Source of the DNA: Nitrosopumilus adriaticus
GTDB lineage: Archaea > Thermoproteota > Nitrososphaeria > Nitrososphaerales > Nitrosopumilaceae
Length of the DNA stretch: 64,000 nt
Direction: 5' to 3'
Assembly: GCF_000956175.1 (NCBI RefSeq)
Contig: NZ_CP011070.1
Coordinates: 682,001-746,000 of the forward strand
The notes under the pieces were generated by a model. That model did not search any database. It saw nothing but the letters and a program-made list of their open reading frames with translations, and was not told the origin of the DNA. Positions 470 to 11,198 of the stretch are shown one piece after another (the first letter of the stretch is position 1; each line of letters opens with the position of its first letter). A program made the position numbers and the translations under genes.

Positions 470-1549
470 ATGATGTTAGTAGATAATCCTGTTGAGCGAG
501 ATCCAGTTTTACGTGATTTGACAGAAATCTCAGTCAATGCATTAAAGGATTTAGAATTAGCAAGAAAAGAACTCAAAGAAAATGATCTTCAAATGCAAGA
601 GATGAATAAATTGGCAAATGAACGAGTTAATGAAATGTCTAGAGTCAATCAACAACTTCAAGATAAAATTTCATTTGTGGAAAACATGACAAAATCAATG
701 CAGGAGAAAAATGAACATCTAGAAAAAGAACTGAAAATTACCGAAACTGAAAAAATTAATTATAGTAAGCTTAATGCATTATTGAAAGAAGATCTCAGTA
801 AAGTAATTAAAAAGGAAAAAGAACTTTCTATCAAACAAATTTTCCTAGAAAAGAAAGTTAAAGAGCAAGCTGAGAACTTATTGAAAGGAGAAAAAATGTC
901 TATAATTGGGACATTTACTTCGAGACTTGCTCATGATATAAGAAATCCGTTATCAAAATTAAAAATGTCTCATGATATTTTGTGTAATTCTCCAAATATG
1001 CCCGTTCTGGATAAAATAAAACATCAGCAAAGAATTGAATCTGCAATTTCTAATATGACTCATATCATTGAAGATGTTTTAGAATTTGTAAGAATGTCTG
1101 AACTTGATATGAAAGAAACTCCAATAAAAACAATTATCAAATCCAGCATGGAATCGATAACTGTACCATCATCCGTAAAATTAGAAATTAAAGGAGATGA
1201 TAGAGCTGCTTTATGTGATTCTAGAAAATTAGAAGCAGTATTTGTAAACCTGTTAACTAATGCTATTGAAGCTATTCGCGGTAAAGGTTATGTGGCTATA
1301 AAAATTATGGATAATGGAAATAATATAGAAATATGTTTTGAAGATTCTGGTGCTGGGGTGATACCTAGCTTACAGGGTAAAATATTTGAACCAATGTTTA
1401 CAACAAAACAACATGGTACAGGATTGGGATTAGCTATTTGTAAAATGATTGTGGAACAACATGGGGGTAAACTATTATACAAAAATACGCCTTCTGCATT
1501 TTCAGTACTATTACCAAAAATCAATAACCATAAAATGGTGGCACGATAA
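470..1549 (+). CDS. soluble sensor histidine kinase
   Basis: This 359-residue cytoplasmic protein has a long N-terminal coiled coil (about residues 20-140) with no membrane span or recognisable PAS/GAF domain. A HisKA dimerisation domain follows, with the phospho-acceptor in SRLAHDIRNPL (His155), then a HATPase_c domain: N box LLTNAIEAI (about 264), G1 DSGAG (about 292) and G2 GTGLGLA (about 317). All kinase motifs are intact. It should autophosphorylate and pass phosphate to a receiver, plausibly the CheY-like protein encoded about 230 bp downstream. It closely resembles the kinase at 10113-11198 in length and in the C-terminal VEQHGG motif, suggesting paralogues. The signal is unknown; the coiled coil may be the sensory or partner-binding part. 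Confidence 0.9.
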   Translation: MMLVDNPVERDPVLRDLTEISVNALKDLELARKELKENDLQMQEMNKLANERVNEMSRVNQQLQDKISFVENMTKSMQEKNEHLEKELKITETEKINYSKLNALLKEDLSKVIKKEKELSIKQIFLEKKVKEQAENLLKGEKMSIIGTFTSRLAHDIRNPLSKLKMSHDILCNSPNMPVLDKIKHQQRIESAISNMTHIIEDVLEFVRMSELDMKETPIKTIIKSSMESITVPSSVKLEIKGDDRAALCDSRKLEAVFVNLLTNAIEAIRGKGYVAIKIMDNGNNIEICFEDSGAGVIPSLQGKIFEPMFTTKQHGTGLGLAICKMIVEQHGGKLLYKNTPSAFSVLLPKINNHKMVAR

Positions 1550-1777: not shown

Positions 1778-2203
1778 ATGGCAAGAAAATTTCCTGTAGT
1801 GTTATTGGTGGATGATTCTGATGCATTTAGAATATTTTGCAGAGATGCCATTAAAGATTCTATAAAATTTATTCAAATCCTTGAAGCTAAAAATGGAATT
1901 GATGGTCTGAAACAATACCAATTACACAAACCAGATATGATCTTACTTGATTTGAAAATGCCTAAATTGGAAGGTGGTAAAGTTTTAGAATTAATCCGAA
2001 AAAATGATAAAATTACAAAAATTATTGTTACTTCTGCATACAACAATGATCAGGAATCAATTAATAATTTAATTAAAATGGGAGCTAATAGTTATGTCCC
2101 AAAACCTATGAATCGGATTAATTTGATGAAAGTTATTACAGATGTATTGGCAAAGGGGAAAATGCCTGGAACAAATTTTGCAAAATCACTTCCTGCAAAT
2201 TAA
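1778..2203 (+). CDS. CheY-like response regulator
   Basis: This single-domain receiver of 141 residues has the acidic pair VDDSD (Asp12/13), the phospho-acceptor in LLDLKMP (Asp58), the Thr/Ser of VTSAY and the Lys of PKPMN. The last 15 or so residues are a short tail. With no output domain, it should act by protein-protein contact or as a phosphate shuttle. The upstream soluble kinase is the obvious candidate donor. An AT-rich segment with TTTTTTAAAAAA follows the stop and may end the transcript. Confidence 0.9.
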   Translation: MARKFPVVLLVDDSDAFRIFCRDAIKDSIKFIQILEAKNGIDGLKQYQLHKPDMILLDLKMPKLEGGKVLELIRKNDKITKIIVTSAYNNDQESINNLIKMGANSYVPKPMNRINLMKVITDVLAKGKMPGTNFAKSLPAN

Positions 2204-2457: not shown

Positions 2458-5400
2458 ATGAAATCAAATCTCAAATTAATCTGTATTTCTATGATGTTAT
2501 TTACAATATTGTATGTTTCATCAATCGACCAAGTCTTAGCTGATCATAAAATTGGTGATGATGTATTACATAAGGATCTTTATGAATTAAAAGTAAAATC
2601 TTCTCCCCCTGGTTTGCACATTGATGGTTCAGGTTTTTATGAAGAAAATACATGGGTTGTGATTGGTACTGCTCAAGAAAAATGGGGAGCATATGAATTT
2701 GTTAGATGGACAGTAAATAATGAATGGGTGGATGGAAACCCAATTAATGTTTTAATGGATGAAGATGTCACTGCCATTGCAACATATTCTATACATCCTG
2801 CACAAAAACAATCAAGTATTAACTTTTTAGAAGATTCAAGTAGTGGCACAACATATGATTTGAGAATAATATCTCCATATGGAAAAGCAATTGGCAGTGG
2901 AACATATGATGCTGGAGAGATTGTAGATTTTAGTGTATCTGAAAAATATGTTTATGATGAAAATGATCCTGGAATACGTTATGCATTTTCAGAATGGAGT
3001 GATGGATTTACCTCCAACTTGAAAACTAATTTTATAAAAATAGATGAAGATAAAACGATTACTGCAACTTGGGACACTCAATATAGGTTAGAAATATTGG
3101 ATTCAACTCAAAATAATAAAATTATTAACACCAGCTGGCATAATGCAAATGCAACTGCCCCTTTAGTTATGAGTGTAGTTGATACTACATCTGATGGAAA
3201 AGTCAAAAGAACAATAAATGAATGGGTCAGCAGTGGCTCTAATTTTGCTGAAATCAATGAGCCTACAGAACCCATTACTAGTGTAAAAATGGAGAATCCT
3301 TACTCCATCTCTATAGATTGGAAAGATCAATACTATCTCAATGTAAAAAGTAAGTATGGTGTAGTTGAAGGAAGTGGATTTTATGATAAAGATGATGTGG
3401 TTGTAGCCTCAATAGATGCAACAACTCAAGAATCGGGAATTCCGGGAGAAAGATTAGTTTTTGATGGTTGGAGTGGTGATGTACATTCTGATGGTAAAAA
3501 TGTTCAAGTCATCATGAATGAGCCAAAATCAATAGAGGGTATTTGGAAAAAACAGTATTTGTTAACAATAATTTCTGAATATGGGGTGGGAAGCGGAACA
3601 AATTGGTATGATGAGGGTAGTGTCGCAAAATTTGGAACAAGTATTCCAAGAGATCCTGCTGGAATGTGGCAGCAAACAAGTTTTCAAGGTTGGAGTGGAG
3701 ATGCAGAAGTAGTATCTACAAGTGGTAGTATACTGATGAATGGACCAAAAACAATTACAGCTAAATGGACTGTAGATCATACAATAGCATATTTGAATAT
3801 TGGAATCATATCCAGTGTTGTAATCGGAGGACTCTTTGTATATAAAAAACTTAAACAAATGGATAGTCAAAGAAAACGCTCTACAGAAGAAATAGTTGAA
3901 TCAATAAAAGAAAAAAGAGGGAAAAAATCTGGATTAGGTAAAATTTTAGGGGGGAAATTAAATTTTGGAAAAGATACATTTGCAATTGAAAATAAAGACT
4001 ATGAAATTGTATTGGAAAATGCTGAATCAGAGAAGAAAATCTTATTGGAGAAAACTCAGGAATTAAGAGATAATATAGAAGAAGAAAAGAAAAACATACA
4101 GAAAAAATCCAATCAATTAGATCATAGATTGTCGCAAATAGAATTTGAACAAAAAGAATCAGAAATAGAATTTGAAAAAAAGAAATTAGAAGAAAAAACT
4201 AGGATGTTAGAAAAAAATCTGGCTGATGTTGAAGATGAAAAGAAAAATATATTGCGGGAAAAGGAAAAACTAGAAAAAAACCTAGCTGAGGCAAAATTTG
4301 AAAAGACTAAAAATTTAATTAATCTTGAAAATCACATTGATGAGGTAAACCTACAAAAGAAAAATCTATCTGAAAAAACTGAGAAACTAGAACAATCTCT
4401 TAAAGATGTTGAACGTGAAAAGAAAAACATAACTCAAGAAAAAATAGATCTGGTGATCAAACTACGAAGTATTGAAGAACAAAAAAATGGTGTTATAGAG
4501 AAACTGGAACAAAAAGCACAAGAGATTGAACTTAAAAGAAAAGAATTAGAAATCGATCTTAAAAGAAAATCAGCAGAGTTAGATATTCAAAAAAGGAAAT
4601 TATCCCAAAAAACAAGTGAACTTGAAAAAAGTATTGCTGAAGTAGAATTACAAAAACAAAGTTTATCTCAGAAAAAAGAAAGTTTGGAAGATAGTATAAC
4701 GGACATTGTATTACAAAAGAAAAAAATCACTTCAGACTTTGAAAGCAAAGAGCAATTTTTTGATTTTGAAAGAAAGTCTAGAATTAAAAGAATTACTGAC
4801 TTGGAAAATAAATTGGCAAAAGCAGAATCAGAAAAAAAGCGAGCTGAAATCGAGCTAAAAACAAATTTATCTGCCATTGAACTGACAAAACAAAAAATTT
4901 CACAAAAAACTGAACAATTGGACAAAAATCTAACTGATGTAGAACAACAAAAGCGGGGAATTTTGTTTGAAAAAGAACAACTTGAGAAAAATCTCACCGC
5001 AGTTGAACTAGAGCGGAATATACTATATCAAAAAACTAGTGAATTAGAAGCAAAAATATCTGAAATAAATAATCAGAAAAAAACACATGCAACTGAAATA
5101 AAGAAAAATTTTGCTGCAATTGAACTTCAAAAACAGGCTGCTTTACAAAAAATACAAGAACTCGAAAAAAAAATTCTAGATGTAGAAACTGAAAAGAAAA
5201 ATGTCTCTAGAAACTTTGAAAGAAAAGAATCTGAAATTGAATCAATTAAAAGTAACTTGAAACAAAAGACTTTACAACTTGAGGAAGATCTTGCAACAAT
5301 AAACCTACAAAAGAAAAATTTATCTGAACAAACCAAAAAAATTGAACAAACTCTTGTAGATGTAGAAACTGAAAAGGAAAATGTCCTACAAGAAAAAAGA

Positions 5401-6666
5401 AATCTAGAGGATAGTTTAGCTAAACTTGAATATGAAAAAAAGAAATGCGCTGTTGAATTAGAAAAAAGTATTAGTAATATTGATCTAGAAAAAAGAAAAG
5501 CAATAATTAAACTTGAAAACGAGGTTGCAGAAGTAAATCTTCAGAAAAAGAGCTTATCAGAAAAAATGATTCAACTGGATAAAAGTCTTGAAGAAGTAAA
5601 TTTGGAAAAGAAACAATTACATGAAAAAATTACTCAGTTAAATAAAAATTTGAAAGAAGTGGATCTTGCAAAGAATGAAACGGCCTCTAAATTGGAAAGC
5701 ATGACTGCTTCATTTGAATTAGAAAATAAAAGTAAATTACTTGATATTCAAAGAAAGGAAAATGAAATTCAATTTACAAAACAAGATCTAGATAATAAAA
5801 ATAAACAACTTGAAAGTAGTCTTACAGAAGTAAACCTACAAAAGAAAAATCTTAATTTACAAAAAATTGAACTTGAAAATAAATTAGGGAAAATAGATCT
5901 AGAAAAGAAAAAACTCTCATCAGAACTTGAACGAAAAGAATCTGCTATTGAAACAGAAGAAAAGAGACTAGGTCAAAAAATCTGGGATTTGGAAAAGCGA
6001 ATAGCTAATTTCTCGCTCGAAAGAAAGATTTCCTCAATAGAACTTGAAAAAAAGAAAATTTATGCAGAACTTGAAAGAAAAGAGTTGCTAATTAATCTTG
6101 AAAAAGAGCATCTTTCTCAAAGAAAAGCAGATTTGGAAAAAAGTATTGCGGCAATTGAGATAGAGAAGGATATTTTACCTTCAGAAACTCAGTTACAGAA
6201 AAATTCAAAATTAAACAGAAAAAATGTTTCTGCCAAATCTAAAGATTTGGAAAATATTATTGCAGAAATAGAACTTGCTCGAAAGATTTCATCTGCAGAA
6301 CTTGAAAGAAAAGAATCTGTTATTCTTCTACAAAAGAAAAATTTGGATGAGGAAACTGAAATTTTGAAAAAGAGAATTTCAGGTTTGGAAGTTGAGAGGA
6401 AAATCTCTTCAGTTCAAATAGAAAGAATAGAATCAGAAATTCAACTCGAAAAGAAAAAATTGGAACACCAAACAAGAGAAATTGGAAAAGCAACTTCTAA
6501 AAATATTAATTTATCAAAGAATGTTTTGACTTCTTATTCTACTGAGTATGATTCTAATTCATATGAAAAGTTTAGAGAATGGTCTAGTGTTCTTGAGGAT
6601 CAAATATCTGTAAATGAACCATCTGATAATGAAAGATCTGTTTCCTACTCTGGTGATAATCAATGA
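2458..6666 (+). CDS. giant membrane protein: extracellular beta repeats, one TM, long coiled coil
   Basis: The 1402-residue product starts with a Sec-type signal peptide (residues 1-28, ending QVLA). About five repeats of 65-80 residues follow (40-440), each of the form Y-L-x-I ... GSGxY ... F-x-x-WSG ... KTIxAxW. These resemble the divergent InlB B-repeat (Listeria-Bacteroides repeat) family of extracellular beta domains. One membrane span lies at about 443-464, followed by Lys/Arg. From about 506 to 1351 the chain is a near-continuous coiled coil of 21-residue units rich in Glu, Lys and Leu, then a Ser/Asn-rich tail. Predicted topology is beta repeats outside and a coil inside more than 100 nm long if extended. 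The stop overlaps the next start (ATGA), so the secreted protein downstream is translationally coupled. Function unknown; a scaffold linking envelope or fibres to the cell interior is my inference. Confidence 0.85.
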   Translation: MKSNLKLICISMMLFTILYVSSIDQVLADHKIGDDVLHKDLYELKVKSSPPGLHIDGSGFYEENTWVVIGTAQEKWGAYEFVRWTVNNEWVDGNPINVLMDEDVTAIATYSIHPAQKQSSINFLEDSSSGTTYDLRIISPYGKAIGSGTYDAGEIVDFSVSEKYVYDENDPGIRYAFSEWSDGFTSNLKTNFIKIDEDKTITATWDTQYRLEILDSTQNNKIINTSWHNANATAPLVMSVVDTTSDGKVKRTINEWVSSGSNFAEINEPTEPITSVKMENPYSISIDWKDQYYLNVKSKYGVVEGSGFYDKDDVVVASIDATTQESGIPGERLVFDGWSGDVHSDGKNVQVIMNEPKSIEGIWKKQYLLTIISEYGVGSGTNWYDEGSVAKFGTSIPRDPAGMWQQTSFQGWSGDAEVVSTSGSILMNGPKTITAKWTVDHTIAYLNIGIISSVVIGGLFVYKKLKQMDSQRKRSTEEIVESIKEKRGKKSGLGKILGGKLNFGKDTFAIENKDYEIVLENAESEKKILLEKTQELRDNIEEEKKNIQKKSNQLDHRLSQIEFEQKESEIEFEKKKLEEKTRMLEKNLADVEDEKKNILREKEKLEKNLAEAKFEKTKNLINLENHIDEVNLQKKNLSEKTEKLEQSLKDVEREKKNITQEKIDLVIKLRSIEEQKNGVIEKLEQKAQEIELKRKELEIDLKRKSAELDIQKRKLSQKTSELEKSIAEVELQKQSLSQKKESLEDSITDIVLQKKKITSDFESKEQFFDFERKSRIKRITDLENKLAKAESEKKRAEIELKTNLSAIELTKQKISQKTEQLDKNLTDVEQQKRGILFEKEQLEKNLTAVELERNILYQKTSELEAKISEINNQKKTHATEIKKNFAAIELQKQAALQKIQELEKKILDVETEKKNVSRNFERKESEIESIKSNLKQKTLQLEEDLATINLQKKNLSEQTKKIEQTLVDVETEKENVLQEKRNLEDSLAKLEYEKKKCAVELEKSISNIDLEKRKAIIKLENEVAEVNLQKKSLSEKMIQLDKSLEEVNLEKKQLHEKITQLNKNLKEVDLAKNETASKLESMTASFELENKSKLLDIQRKENEIQFTKQDLDNKNKQLESSLTEVNLQKKNLNLQKIELENKLGKIDLEKKKLSSELERKESAIETEEKRLGQKIWDLEKRIANFSLERKISSIELEKKKIYAELERKELLINLEKEHLSQRKADLEKSIAAIEIEKDILPSETQLQKNSKLNRKNVSAKSKDLENIIAEIELARKISSAELERKESVILLQKKNLDEETEILKKRISGLEVERKISSVQIERIESEIQLEKKKLEHQTREIGKATSKNINLSKNVLTSYSTEYDSNSYEKFREWSSVLEDQISVNEPSDNERSVSYSGDNQ
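3975..6510 (+). repeat. degenerate 63-nt (21-codon) coding repeats in the coiled coil
   Basis: The coiled-coil segment repeats with a period of 21 residues, that is three heptads or 63 nt. Example units are VNLQKKNLSEKTEKLEQSLK, VELQKQSLSQKKESLEDSIT and IELTKQKISQKTEQLDKNLT, each followed by one acidic residue. The nucleotide phrase ctacaaaagaaaaat recurs in many units. A few units are shortened to 18 residues or replaced by RKE-rich linkers. The pattern points to growth by internal duplication followed by drift. Confidence 0.75.
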
Positions 6667-7049
6667 GCTTAATATTGTTAGGTATATTCTTAATTTCGGC
6701 ATTCACAATTGTGATGTTTAGCACTACTGGCGTTGCTAATTCTTTAGATACTTCCTCTGATGTCAATAAACTGGGTGCCTTACAAGTTTTTGATTCCTCT
6801 GGAAGTACTCTTCTTGGATTAAACTTGGGAACTTCTGATAATATCGCTTCTGTAACCCTTACATTTAATTCAAATATTGCAGGCAGTGCCACTGTAACTC
6901 TTTCTTTAAAAGATAATGATGGGGTAGAAATTGGAACTGGTTCTACATTAACTGGGGGTCCAACTAAAACTGTGATAATTAGTCTAACTGATAGTATAAC
7001 TGATGCTGAAAGAAGTACTTTACAATCTGCAAACATTTCTGTTACTTGA
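6663..7049 (+). CDS. small secreted surface protein, cysteine-free
   Basis: This 128-residue protein has an N-terminal hydrophobic signal (residues 1-24, likely cut after GVA) and a Thr/Ser/Asn-rich, beta-prone mature part without cysteine. Its start overlaps the stop of the giant coiled-coil gene by 4 nt, so the two are co-translated. Just after the signal it has DVNKLG, matching NKIGG in the next gene and NLIG in the protein at 9058-9513, which suggests a common family. A dedicated signal peptidase is encoded 1.5 kb away. A role as filament or surface-layer subunit (TasA/AbpA-like) is inferred from layout, not from a clear family match. Confidence 0.7.
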   Translation: MSLILLGIFLISAFTIVMFSTTGVANSLDTSSDVNKLGALQVFDSSGSTLLGLNLGTSDNIASVTLTFNSNIAGSATVTLSLKDNDGVEIGTGSTLTGGPTKTVIISLTDSITDAERSTLQSANISVT

Positions 7050-7060
7050 TGGTGGTATAA

Positions 7061-7477
7061 TTGAGTCTAAAAATAATTTTCTTTGTGGGCATTATGATTA
7101 TTGCTGTATCTGCAATAGGTTTAGGTGCAAATCTAAACACATCAAGTCTAATTAACAAAATTGGAGGTGATGACAATATTTCCATTGCATTAACTGATGC
7201 TGATATAACAAATATGGTGCATTCTACAAGCGGCTCAAATATTGATTCATCAACAATTACTGTTAGAAATACTGACAGTGTTTCTCATTCATATCAAATA
7301 TGTGTGATTACAAAAGCTGGAGCTTCAATAAGTGATACTGTAGGTACTACTTCGGATTGCACAATTACTCCTTTAATATCTTCAAGCAGCACAGGTTCGG
7401 CTGTAATTACTTTTACGACTCCTCTTAGTAAAACCAGTGTTGATTTTGCAAATATCTCTATACAAGAAATTAGTTAG
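7061..7477 (+). CDS. small secreted protein with conserved cysteine pair (TasA/AbpA-like candidate)
   Basis: This 138-residue protein begins with TTG 11 nt after the previous stop. Signal/TM segment 1-23 ends IGLGA, then NLNTSSLINKIGG. The mature part is beta-prone and carries the block SYQICVITKAG followed about 20 residues later by a second Cys (SDCTI), ending in an ISIQE strand. The proteins at 7562-8071 and 9058-9513 share the same QIC/EIC ... C ... DIS-I-E(L) layout, so they are paralogues and probably carry one disulfide. Third gene of the operon starting at 2458. Its 3' end converges with the opposite-strand operon. Confidence 0.75.
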   Translation: MSLKIIFFVGIMIIAVSAIGLGANLNTSSLINKIGGDDNISIALTDADITNMVHSTSGSNIDSSTITVRNTDSVSHSYQICVITKAGASISDTVGTTSDCTITPLISSSSTGSAVITFTTPLSKTSVDFANISIQEIS

Positions 7478-7561
7478 ACTGTGATGTTACTCTAAACTTC
7501 AAACAATAAATAAATTATTTTATTTATGAAAAAATTATTTTATTTTGACTTGTAGTTTTGA

Positions 7562-8071
7562 TCATCCTAATTCTTGTATTGTAATAGATATGTCTACAAG
7601 TTCACTGACTTTAACACCGTTTGAAAAACCTATGGAATGATTAACTGATTTTTCATAAGCCTCAATTTCATCTGTATTTGTACAAGCCAGTGGGCTATCT
7701 AATGATGGCGTAAATTTTTTTAAAGGTCCTTGAATTATGGTACAAATTTCAAAAGATTGAGCTACTTTACTATCATTAACAACAGAAAAACCAATACCCC
7801 TAATTTCGATAACTCCGTCTGATGAAACCTTTTTTGTCCATGAAAAATCTTCAATGTGTCCACGGGGGGTAATTAACCCATTTTTCCCTGATTCTGAATT
7901 TGAAAATGATTGGGTTAAAATTGATTCATCTGCTATTGCCATTGAAATAGTTGCTACAATTAGAATCATGGTAAGTATTCCATACATGGTGAATTTTTGA
8001 AAATCTATTCTTTCCAAGTTTTTATAGGACTTTATTTCATTAAGATTTTTTTTAAAATTGGCATGATTCAA
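7562..8071 (-). CDS. small secreted protein, cysteine-pair family
   Basis: The 169-residue frame has a hydrophobic segment only at about 29-47 (MYGILTMILIVATISMAIA), preceded by a charged stretch. Translation may really start at the internal Met just before this segment, or the protein may keep a cytoplasmic N-tail. The mature region contains SFEICTIIQGP, a second Cys (LACTNTDEIEAY) and ends VDISITIQELG, aligning well with the protein at 9058-9513. It is the last gene of the minus-strand group after the signal peptidase, 122 bp downstream of it. A surface or fibre subunit is inferred from the dedicated peptidase and paralogy. Confidence 0.75.
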   Translation of the reverse strand: MNHANFKKNLNEIKSYKNLERIDFQKFTMYGILTMILIVATISMAIADESILTQSFSNSESGKNGLITPRGHIEDFSWTKKVSSDGVIEIRGIGFSVVNDSKVAQSFEICTIIQGPLKKFTPSLDSPLACTNTDEIEAYEKSVNHSIGFSNGVKVSELVDISITIQELG

Positions 8072-8193
8072 TTTTTTTCTAGTTTACTTTAGAAATAATT
8101 AGTAATATTGAGCATGGAACATTTTCAAATTGGGCAATTCCATAATGGAATTTTCTGGAAAATACCCTTCACTAAAAAGTGAGCCTATTTTAT

Positions 8194-9018
8194 CTAAAAA
8201 AGGGGTGGGATCAATTCATTTTCATTCAAGATTTTTATTAAAATTGGAATGGTGTTCATTGCACTCATTGCTTGCAGTACGAGCAACATTATGCCACCTA
8301 GAGCAAAAATTAATTTTAAAGGTTTGATATCATCACTTTTATTATTTTGAATTTTTCTTGAAAACACATAGAGCATAATAAATGACATAACTAACAACCC
8401 AAATGATGCTGAATTAGCAATAGATGGCTCAAGATAATTTGATAGTGGTATGTTCATAGTTTTTGCAAGTCTGATATCAAATCCTAAAACTGCCTGAGTT
8501 AAAACAAAATTTATTAGCACTGAAATAATTCCAATCTTATAAATTACAAAGCTCTCTGTATGATTTTTTTTACTTTGTTTATCTTTGTTCTTAGAATACA
8601 TGATTAATGCCCATATCCCAAAAATTGAAATTCCGATTGGAGTTTGTAAAAATAGCGATGTGTATCCAACATATGGAATAACAAAAATTGTTCTCCCAAT
8701 AACTTCGTCTACTGGAACTATTCCTGGATCATTTTTTCTATTATTGTCCCCTTTTGTGATGAACCCTTCATCCGTTTGCTTTACAATTCTATGTACTACA
8801 TTTTTTTCTTCCTCATTTACAAATCCTATGATGTCACCTATGATGTATTTTTGATCTTGCTTAAGAACAACAAATGTTCCGCTTTCTATAACTGGATACA
8901 TACTGTTTCCTACAAGCATAATGTAAGTTGTATCGCCGTGTAATTGTGCTGGCCAAAAATATATAACAATAGGTAGTAGACATAACAAAAAAGCCACTTT
9001 AACTTTATTGTGTTTCAT
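8194..9018 (-). CDS. sipW-like: SipW/ER-type signal peptidase I (S26B)
   Basis: A 274-residue integral membrane serine peptidase. An N-terminal span (8-23) precedes the catalytic box GNSMYP (Ser39). The general base is His76 in NVVHRIV rather than Lys, which marks the archaeal/ER/SipW subtype. Box E follows as KGDNNRKND (Asp91, Asp97), and three or four C-terminal spans complete the protein. The family removes signal peptides at the outer membrane face. It sits between two genes for small secreted proteins on the same strand (39 bp after one, 122 bp before the other), as bacterial sipW sits with tasA. This indicates a peptidase dedicated to local substrates. Whether it is the only such enzyme in the genome cannot be told here. 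Confidence 0.85.
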   Translation of the reverse strand: MKHNKVKVAFLLCLLPIVIYFWPAQLHGDTTYIMLVGNSMYPVIESGTFVVLKQDQKYIIGDIIGFVNEEEKNVVHRIVKQTDEGFITKGDNNRKNDPGIVPVDEVIGRTIFVIPYVGYTSLFLQTPIGISIFGIWALIMYSKNKDKQSKKNHTESFVIYKIGIISVLINFVLTQAVLGFDIRLAKTMNIPLSNYLEPSIANSASFGLLVMSFIMLYVFSRKIQNNKSDDIKPLKLIFALGGIMLLVLQAMSAMNTIPILIKILNENELIPPLF

Positions 9019-9057
9019 CTTTTCTCACACTAAATATTTAGAAAGAAAAAGAATGGA

Positions 9058-9513
9058 TTAATTTCCAATCTGGTCTAGTTCTTCTATGGAGAAACTAATG
9101 TCTACTATGCTAGTAACATTAACTGGTGTTGTAAAGTTAATGTAATGTGATGTGGAATTGGCATATGCTGCTATTTCGCCTGTAAGTGTACATGCTGGTA
9201 TTTGTCCTGCTGCGGGTGTATATGTTCCAACAGGACCTTCAATTACTGCACATATTTGAAAATCATGTGATTCTGTGGTGTCTTCATTTCCTACTGCAAA
9301 AACAATTGAATCTGTTTCAATTACGCCTTCAGTTGATACTTCTTCAGTCCAAGTTAATGCAGTAATGTTGCCTCTTGCAGTGGATACCTCGTTATTGTCA
9401 CTTGCTCCAATTAAGTTGAATGTTGGAGTGTTAGTTAGTGTGGCTCCAAATCCTACTGTAGATGTTACTAGAATTGCTATTCCTAATAGTGCAATAATTG
9501 GTAAACTTTTCAT
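9058..9513 (-). CDS. small secreted protein, cysteine-pair family (fibre-subunit candidate)
   Basis: The 151-residue product has signal 1-23 (probable cut near GFGA), then TPTFNLIGASDNN and a beta-prone region. Hallmarks are HDFQICAVIEGP, a second Cys about 20 residues later (PACTLTGEIAAY) and the terminal strand VDISFSIEEL. It is clearly paralogous to the proteins at 7562-8071 and 7061-7477. It is the first gene of its operon, directly ahead of the SipW-type signal peptidase. Bacterial TasA and the archaeal bundling pilin AbpA of Pyrobaculum are secreted, beta-rich subunits with SipW-type processing. I infer an analogous role but see no diagnostic sequence identity. Confidence 0.8.
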   Translation of the reverse strand: MKSLPIIALLGIAILVTSTVGFGATLTNTPTFNLIGASDNNEVSTARGNITALTWTEEVSTEGVIETDSIVFAVGNEDTTESHDFQICAVIEGPVGTYTPAAGQIPACTLTGEIAAYANSTSHYINFTTPVNVTSIVDISFSIEELDQIGN

Positions 9514-10112: not shown

Positions 10113-11198
10113 ATGCGTAAATATATTGTTAGGAAGAATTTTGATCAAAATAACCTTGATGAATTAAATGTTCCAAACAGATCAGTCTTCTTTGAAAAAA
10201 AGAAAGGTGCTAAAATACTATCTAAAGAAGATCAAAAATTAAATAACCAAAAACAAACTAACTCTACAAATCCGCCTGAAGATCAATATGTTGTAAATAC
10301 AAACCCTGATGAAGAAATTCTTAGCACTGAGGCAAAAAAAATCTTTGACGAATCCTTGTCTGCAATGGAAGAATATGATAAAAAAAGACTTGATAACATT
10401 TACAATCAACTATCAACAGAAAAAAAAATCTCTAAAGAACTCAATGAAAAACTACACAAAAATTTATCTAAAATTGCATCTGCAGAATTAGAATTAGTTA
10501 AGAAAAAAAATCAATTAGAAAAAGATCTTGATGATAAAACAAAACAATTAATCGATTCTGAACGATTTGCTGCAATTGGACAATTGTCTGGCAAACTGGC
10601 TCATGAGTTACGTACTCCGTTAACTGTCATTAAGGGTTCTGTGGGTGTTATGAAGCATAAAAAGGGTGAGCTAATAGATGACTCTATCATTCAAAAATTG
10701 GAATTGATGGAAGAATCCATCTATCGAATGAATAATCAGGTTGAAAAAGTATTGAATTTTGTTCAAAAATATCCTTTAAATAAAAAAGAAGAGTCACTAA
10801 GAAACATAATTCAGAGATCCGTATCTTTACTTAGAAAAAACACAAACATTACAATTCTAACTCCAAAAAATGACATCAAATTCAATTGTGATCCAATTAA
10901 AATGGAGGTAGTCATAGGCAATATGCTCTTAAATGCAATTCAAGCAATAGAAAATGAAATTGGTCAAATAATTATTGAAATTAGTGAATCATCTGATTCA
11001 ATTAACATCACTATTCAAGATTCAGGTAAAGGAATTCCAGAAGATCTTGGGGAGCAAATTTTCTCCCCTCTAGTTTCTTCAAAAATGAATGGAACTGGAT
11101 TGGGATTATCAAGTGTAAAAAATATTGTAGAACAACATGGTGGAGTGATCAATTTCAAAAATAATCCTACTACATTTACTATTAGTTTTCCAAAATAA
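10113..11198 (+). CDS. soluble sensor histidine kinase
   Basis: This 361-residue cytoplasmic kinase has no membrane span. A charged N-terminal region and coiled coil (about 75-150) lead to HisKA with the acceptor His164 in GKLAHELRTPL. HATPase_c follows with LLNAIQAI, DSGKGIP and GTGLGLSS, then VEQHGG. All motifs needed for autophosphorylation are present. Architecture and C-terminal sequence match the kinase at 470-1549, indicating duplication. No receiver gene adjoins it; the nearest CheY-like gene is about 3.6 kb downstream on the other strand. It lies next to the surface-protein locus but regulation of that locus is speculation. Confidence 0.88.
   Translation: MRKYIVRKNFDQNNLDELNVPNRSVFFEKKKGAKILSKEDQKLNNQKQTNSTNPPEDQYVVNTNPDEEILSTEAKKIFDESLSAMEEYDKKRLDNIYNQLSTEKKISKELNEKLHKNLSKIASAELELVKKKNQLEKDLDDKTKQLIDSERFAAIGQLSGKLAHELRTPLTVIKGSVGVMKHKKGELIDDSIIQKLELMEESIYRMNNQVEKVLNFVQKYPLNKKEESLRNIIQRSVSLLRKNTNITILTPKNDIKFNCDPIKMEVVIGNMLLNAIQAIENEIGQIIIEISESSDSINITIQDSGKGIPEDLGEQIFSPLVSSKMNGTGLGLSSVKNIVEQHGGVINFKNNPTTFTISFPK

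Follow-up and report, generated by a model that had tools for sequence, protein, structure and literature searches.

The six genes at positions 2458-9513 of the window form a cassette that is co-inherited with the archaellum as a conserved module in Nitrosopumilus. The window is the whole stretch of 64,000 nucleotides that was analyzed, positions 682001-746000 of the single-contig, 1,803,090-base genome of Nitrosopumilus adriaticus (labeled G000). Positions are those of the window unless a locus or genome is named. The cassette encodes four small secreted proteins (s1 to s4), an extra ER-type signal peptidase and a giant membrane protein of 1402 aa. Because it was found only with archaellum genes, the cassette may well represent a new kind of surface fiber or collar for cells that both swim and attach. 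Our main reading, to which a probability of about 0.42 is given, is that the six genes act as one module of archaellum-bearing Nitrosopumilus and would build a strand-complemented surface fiber or collar anchored by the giant protein.

The surface structures of marine ammonia-oxidizing archaea are poorly known. Nitrosopumilus maritimus is without any pilus secretion ATPases (PMC4858521), and N. adriaticus is described as a species with genes for motility and a particle niche that forms biofilms better than N. piranensis does (PMC12448741). A module tied to the archaellum would help to explain particle attachment by motile species, and it may be testable in culture with N. adriaticus. The literature searched yielded neither proteomic nor biofilm expression data on the cassette genes.

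All six genes that the preliminary description had placed in this region are present, and they occupy it as two convergent operons: giant, s1 and s2 on the plus strand, and s4, peptidase and s3 on the minus strand. The giant protein (2458..6666) consists of a signal peptide, a beta ectodomain with InlB-type repeats (PF18998, 9e-9), one transmembrane segment identified by hydropathy (residues 443-461, 3784..3840) and followed by residues rich in K/R, and a tail of about 850 aa. The tail contains the coiled-coil region (approximately residues 520-1360, 4015..6537), which shows a hydrophobic period of 3.54 residues and is rich in E and K (17% each), with only two prolines in the tail. The K/R-rich side would be the inside of the cell, making the coil cytoplasmic, and the coil would be about 125 nm long if continuous. 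In the second cassette of genome G447 the giant is only 485 aa long and lacks the coil, which can thus be dispensed with in that cassette.

The topology of the giant would also suit a sensor of surface contact or flow, in which its ectodomain, with s1-s4, detects attachment and the coil relays the signal to neighboring histidine kinases and response regulators in control of swimming. Here the neighbors are a soluble histidine kinase and possible regulator (470..1549, plus strand), whose orthologues in G031, G351, G156 and G034 have the same position, a response regulator (1778..2203, plus strand) and another histidine kinase (10113..11198, plus strand). Kinases and regulators flank most cassette copies and two lone s4 copies. 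However, these genomes are rich in two-component genes, whose adjacency may therefore be due to chance. No domain common to the kinases and the giant was found, and the G447 giant noted above has no cytoplasmic coil through which to signal. A sensor is thus considered quite improbable.

The small proteins follow a common plan of signal peptide, post-signal arm and body. The s1 protein (6663..7049, plus strand) is a 128-aa secreted beta-sandwich protein without Cys, and its start overlaps the stop of the giant (ATGA). This coupling, noted in the preliminary description, is real. Of the nine copies inspected, eight have giant and s1 overlapping by 1 or 4 bases, and in G459 the start of s1 is unclear. 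The s2 protein (7061..7477, plus strand) is a 138-aa secreted paralogue with a TTG start and Cys81/Cys100. The s3 gene (7562..8071, minus strand) encodes a secreted paralogue with a Cys pair; its start is uncertain (TTG at 8071) and the mature protein begins from about 7930. The s4 protein (9058..9513, minus strand) is a 151-aa secreted paralogue with Cys88/Cys108. The arms lie at 6738..6785 in s1 (NSLDTSSDVNKLGAL), 7127..7186 in s2 (ANLNTSSLINKIGGDDN...) and 9385..9444 in s4 (ATLTNTPTFNLIGASDNNEV), and their consensus is roughly L-x-[TS]-[TS]-[PS]-x-x-N-x-[IL]-G.

A search of the G000 genome with s4 identified s3 (1.2e-24) and s2 (5.8e-13), so the paralogy of s2, s3 and s4 is far beyond chance. 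A fifth paralogue lies about 194 kb away (G000:C1:885970, 1.3e-38). Five residues (N76, C88, C108, T111 and I114) are invariant in the 12 family sequences. The body of s1 has no detectable homology to s2, s3 or s4, and the part that matches the family is limited to the signal and arm (hhalign E 2e-4, probability 47%), in agreement with the arm listing, in which the s1 arm resembles those of s2 and s4. For example, the s1 arm of G447 (GASLSTTPQLNKL) is nearly identical to the arm of an s4 copy (GASLSTTPEFNLIG). Thus, of the earlier proposal that all four proteins share signal and arm, and three of them a Cys pair, true paralogy holds for s2, s3 and s4, and s1 shares only the signal and arm. Among the s4 copies, 9 of 20 arm positions are invariant versus 22 of 104 in the body, a marginal difference (p 0.045). 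Elsewhere, a lone s4 paralogue lies beside a TrmB-like regulator that resembles the archaellin-adjacent one (L049:9025-10411, also L050 and L114). A viral origin was also considered and rejected; 74 pattern matches were obtained in IMG/VR, with no relative among them.

AlphaFold2 predicted all-beta sandwiches for both proteins modeled, with the conserved arm disordered in each. The model of mature s4 with 12 relatives has six strands (pLDDT 82.5, pTM 0.76), with residues 1-20 at a pLDDT of about 55, and the model of mature s1 with two relatives has seven strands (pLDDT 81.3, pTM 0.72), with residues 1-11 below 50. A conserved, unpaired N-terminal arm beside an all-beta body resembles a donor strand as seen in a monomer model, a resemblance that is not proof. 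Foldseek against the PDB gave one match to s4 at 7.9e-4 (a DUF1425 protein), followed by generic Ig-like domains with a TM of about 0.4, and no match to s1 below 0.03. TasA and AbpA, the folds raised in the preliminary description, were absent from the best 50 of 1382 PDB fold matches to s4; the models bear out the beta sandwiches, and within those 50 matches the likeness to TasA or AbpA found no support.

Ig-like folds are common among adhesins, and sequons are present in all four small proteins, one of which (N49-x-T51 of s4) is conserved in the relatives of s4. The small proteins might therefore be monomeric, N-glycosylated adhesins, secreted or associated with the S-layer, in which the arm is a linker and the co-occurrence with the archaellum reflects niche, the tie to a motile particle lifestyle being one of ecology only. 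This explanation leaves the extra peptidase, the conservation of the arm against a disordered model and the same six-gene order at different sites unaccounted for, and it is regarded as very unlikely.

The peptidase (274 aa, 8194..9018, minus strand) is an S26 enzyme of the archaeal/ER type (TIGR02228, 5.7e-28) whose best PDB matches are SEC11A/C. Its catalytic dyad, Ser39 (codon 8902..8904) and His76 (codon 8791..8793), is invariant in the alignment of four members, and beyond the catalytic part the enzyme carries a C-terminal extension of four further transmembrane segments. The ER type and the dyad proposed earlier are thus borne out. With the curated SipW model (NF046067, cut-off 190 bits) the enzyme scores 56.6 bits, and the archaeal control enzyme of locus L061 likewise fails to reach the cut-off (102 bits). 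The genome also has an ordinary S26 peptidase, weakly related and like those in most relatives, so the cassette peptidase is an extra one. Its co-occurrence with the neighboring small-protein genes is near-perfect across 95 genomes. A general rule that S26 peptidases adjoin small secreted proteins was found to be weak (5 of the 23 best matches in the phylum versus 2 of 16 housekeeping loci), and the small protein beside a related peptidase in G374 has no homology to the cassette family. Another related peptidase, whose C-terminal membrane tail is alike, lies near secreted proteins that end in PVGGELLSID and a transmembrane segment (L048:3603-9535, G038).

The distribution of the cassette was followed through 95 genomes of the genus. 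The peptidase is present in eight of them, and both the giant ectodomain (at E below 1e-100) and the small proteins were found in exactly this set, with one lone s4 in G284 in addition. Lack of co-occurrence in relatives had been named beforehand as the result that would count against the preliminary description. That result did not appear: in relatives the peptidase, the small proteins and the giant strictly go together. No member of the small-protein family was found outside this genus among 398 genomes of the phylum. The core archaellum protein ArlH is present in 10 of the 95 genomes, including all eight with the cassette, and was not found in G284. The cassette therefore occurs in 8 of 10 archaellum genomes versus 0 of 85 others (naive Fisher p 3.7e-10). 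Since the genomes are related, a CarB tree (one marker gene, 28 genomes) was built to count independent contrasts. On this tree the archaellum changes five times, and the cassette goes along in four of the five contrasts and in the opposite direction in none; with so few contrasts, the 0.05 level is out of reach of a sign test (p 0.125).

The location of the cassette also points to the archaellum. In N. adriaticus the end of a full che and archaellum cluster lies upstream of the giant, at a distance of about 11 kb. This cluster is outside the window (G000:C1:654835-673214, L121) and is complete for chemotaxis and archaellum; its several archaellin-type genes extend to 673214 of the genome. Archaellins are on the same contig in G031, G351 and G156, about 12 kb from the giant, and in G034, where the giant is split over two contigs, the flanking genes match the same archaellum island. 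Thus, in five genomes the cassette lies about 12 kb from archaellins or within the same island. The cassettes of G290, G447 (contig 12) and G459 are at other sites with their internal gene order kept, so the synteny looked for in relatives extends to different genomic sites. All genes of the second G447 cassette (L144:6508-12318) are on one strand. In that cassette, an armless s-domain (hhalign 1.2e-9) is fused to a 602-aa protein, whose PEFG-CTERM-like end scores 22.5 bits, under the 25-bit cut-off. Separately, a lone archaellin-like gene, alike in both genomes, lies outside the main archaellin array in G013 (L149:14652-15344) and G034 (L047:6836-7573).

Restriction to archaellated genomes and a place in the archaellum island would also be expected if the small Ig-like proteins encircled the archaellum within the S-layer as a collar or stator ring, similar to ArlF/ArlG, with the giant as a base scaffold and no separate fiber. 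ArlF is also Ig-like (the ArlF-like protein of this genome hits PF22201 weakly) and binds the S-layer (PMC4307647). In addition, the second s4 of G034 adjoins an archaellin-like gene, and in G459 a FlaK-type prepilin peptidase gene (L146:7065-7757) adjoins the cassette, divergent from s4. However, two archaellated genomes, G013 and G128, have no cassette; in G013 the archaellum island is there with the cassette missing. An archaellum can thus do without the cassette. The lone s4 of G284 occurs where ArlH was not found, the small proteins have no sequence relation to the ArlF-like protein, and the [KRDE][GA] class III motif (PMC4307647) is absent from the N-termini of s1-s4. An archaellum accessory is therefore considered possible and, on balance, unlikely. 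Because archaella exist without the cassette, the link points to the occasion on which the cassette is needed, in cells that both swim and attach, more than to a component of the archaellum.

The strand-complemented fiber or collar is judged most likely for several reasons. First, the peptidase is extra to the ordinary one. Secondly, the small proteins share a free arm, which is conserved yet disordered in both models. Third, a divergent arm-bearing partner, s1, is coupled to the anchor. Lastly, the armless s-domain of G447 with its PEFG-CTERM-like end would be an anchored subunit that acts only as an acceptor. The co-occurrence of all parts, the four contrasts in which the cassette goes with the archaellum, the gene order preserved from site to site, the nearby archaellum/che cluster and the FlaK-type gene of G459 also speak for this reading. 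In the proposed mechanism, the putatively dedicated peptidase would remove the signals of s1-s4 and free their N-terminal arms. Each arm may then fill the open edge of the incomplete Ig-like sandwich of the next subunit, and s2-s4 would thereby form the fiber or collar. The s1 protein, which would be co-translated with the giant and has only the arm in common with the others, could act as a starter similar to TapA. The giant would fix the base of the fiber in the envelope and, by means of its coiled coil, connect it with the inside of the cell. The structure would serve for attachment or for anchoring a filament in cells that switch between swimming and life on surfaces. Several points weigh against a fiber: the absence of a sequence relation to TasA/camelysin or to the small protein of G374, the generic Ig-like nature of the Foldseek matches, the marginal conservation of the arm, the p of 0.125 on one marker, the archaella of G013 and G128 that go without the cassette, the lone s4 in G284, where ArlH was not found, and the coil-less giant of G447; moreover, the polymer itself is a prediction.

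Several known systems resemble the cassette in part. In the TasA-SipW-TapA system of Bacillus subtilis, an ER-type Ser/His peptidase also adjoins small secreted beta proteins, and a divergent partner also shares the N-terminal arm. The donor strand of TasA is its post-signal segment, and TapA shares its N-terminus with that strand (PMC9674648). Unlike that system, the cassette has a Cys pair in s2-s4 and generic Ig-like fold matches, the peptidase has an extra four-TM domain, and the presumed cleavage sites are without the aromatic P2' of TasA (PMC10269814). Family membership in TasA/camelysin, which the preliminary description had proposed to check, was not supported by sequence. The s1-s4 proteins had no match at E<1 to the camelysin/TasA (PF12389) or SipW-cognate signal (TIGR04088) profiles, while a control from the same phylum was recognized by PF12389 (6.7e-13), TIGR04088 (2.2e-8) and the TasA model (5e-7). 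This control, L061:79-3389 of G361, is an archaeal operon of the SipW-TasA/camelysin type that encodes a 169-aa peptidase and two camelysin-like proteins, and the small-protein family could not be aligned to it.

AbpA of Pyrobaculum is likewise archaeal and forms TasA-like strand-complemented bundling pili (cited in PMC9674648). A profile of the small proteins (A3) gave no PDB sequence match to it, and it is absent from the best 50 fold matches. The Sulfolobus threads (Saci_0406) are described as archaeal, Sec/SPase I processed, glycosylated and strand-complemented fibers, and that description mentions no dedicated peptidase (PMC9715654), unlike the cassette. The cassette proteins also differ from the threads in having no YYY start, no sequence match and different neighbors. 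ArlF and ArlG are, like the cassette proteins, small and archaellum-linked, with an N-terminal hydrophobic segment and an Ig-like domain, and FlaF binds the S-layer (PMC4307647). This genome, however, has separate ArlF- and ArlG-like genes in the archaellum operon, and homology of the small proteins to ArlF was rejected (hhalign E 0.13 against its own ArlF-like protein). We would suggest, more tentatively than the main reading, a previously undescribed archaeal surface polymer that functionally belongs to the archaellum island, with Ig-like subunits carrying an exchangeable arm, its own ER-type peptidase and a start on an arm-bearing partner co-translated with a giant coiled-coil anchor. Of the known families tested, none includes the cassette, which would work like a peptidase-coupled, strand-complemented assembly and would extend the surface assemblies of this kind by a non-TasA family.
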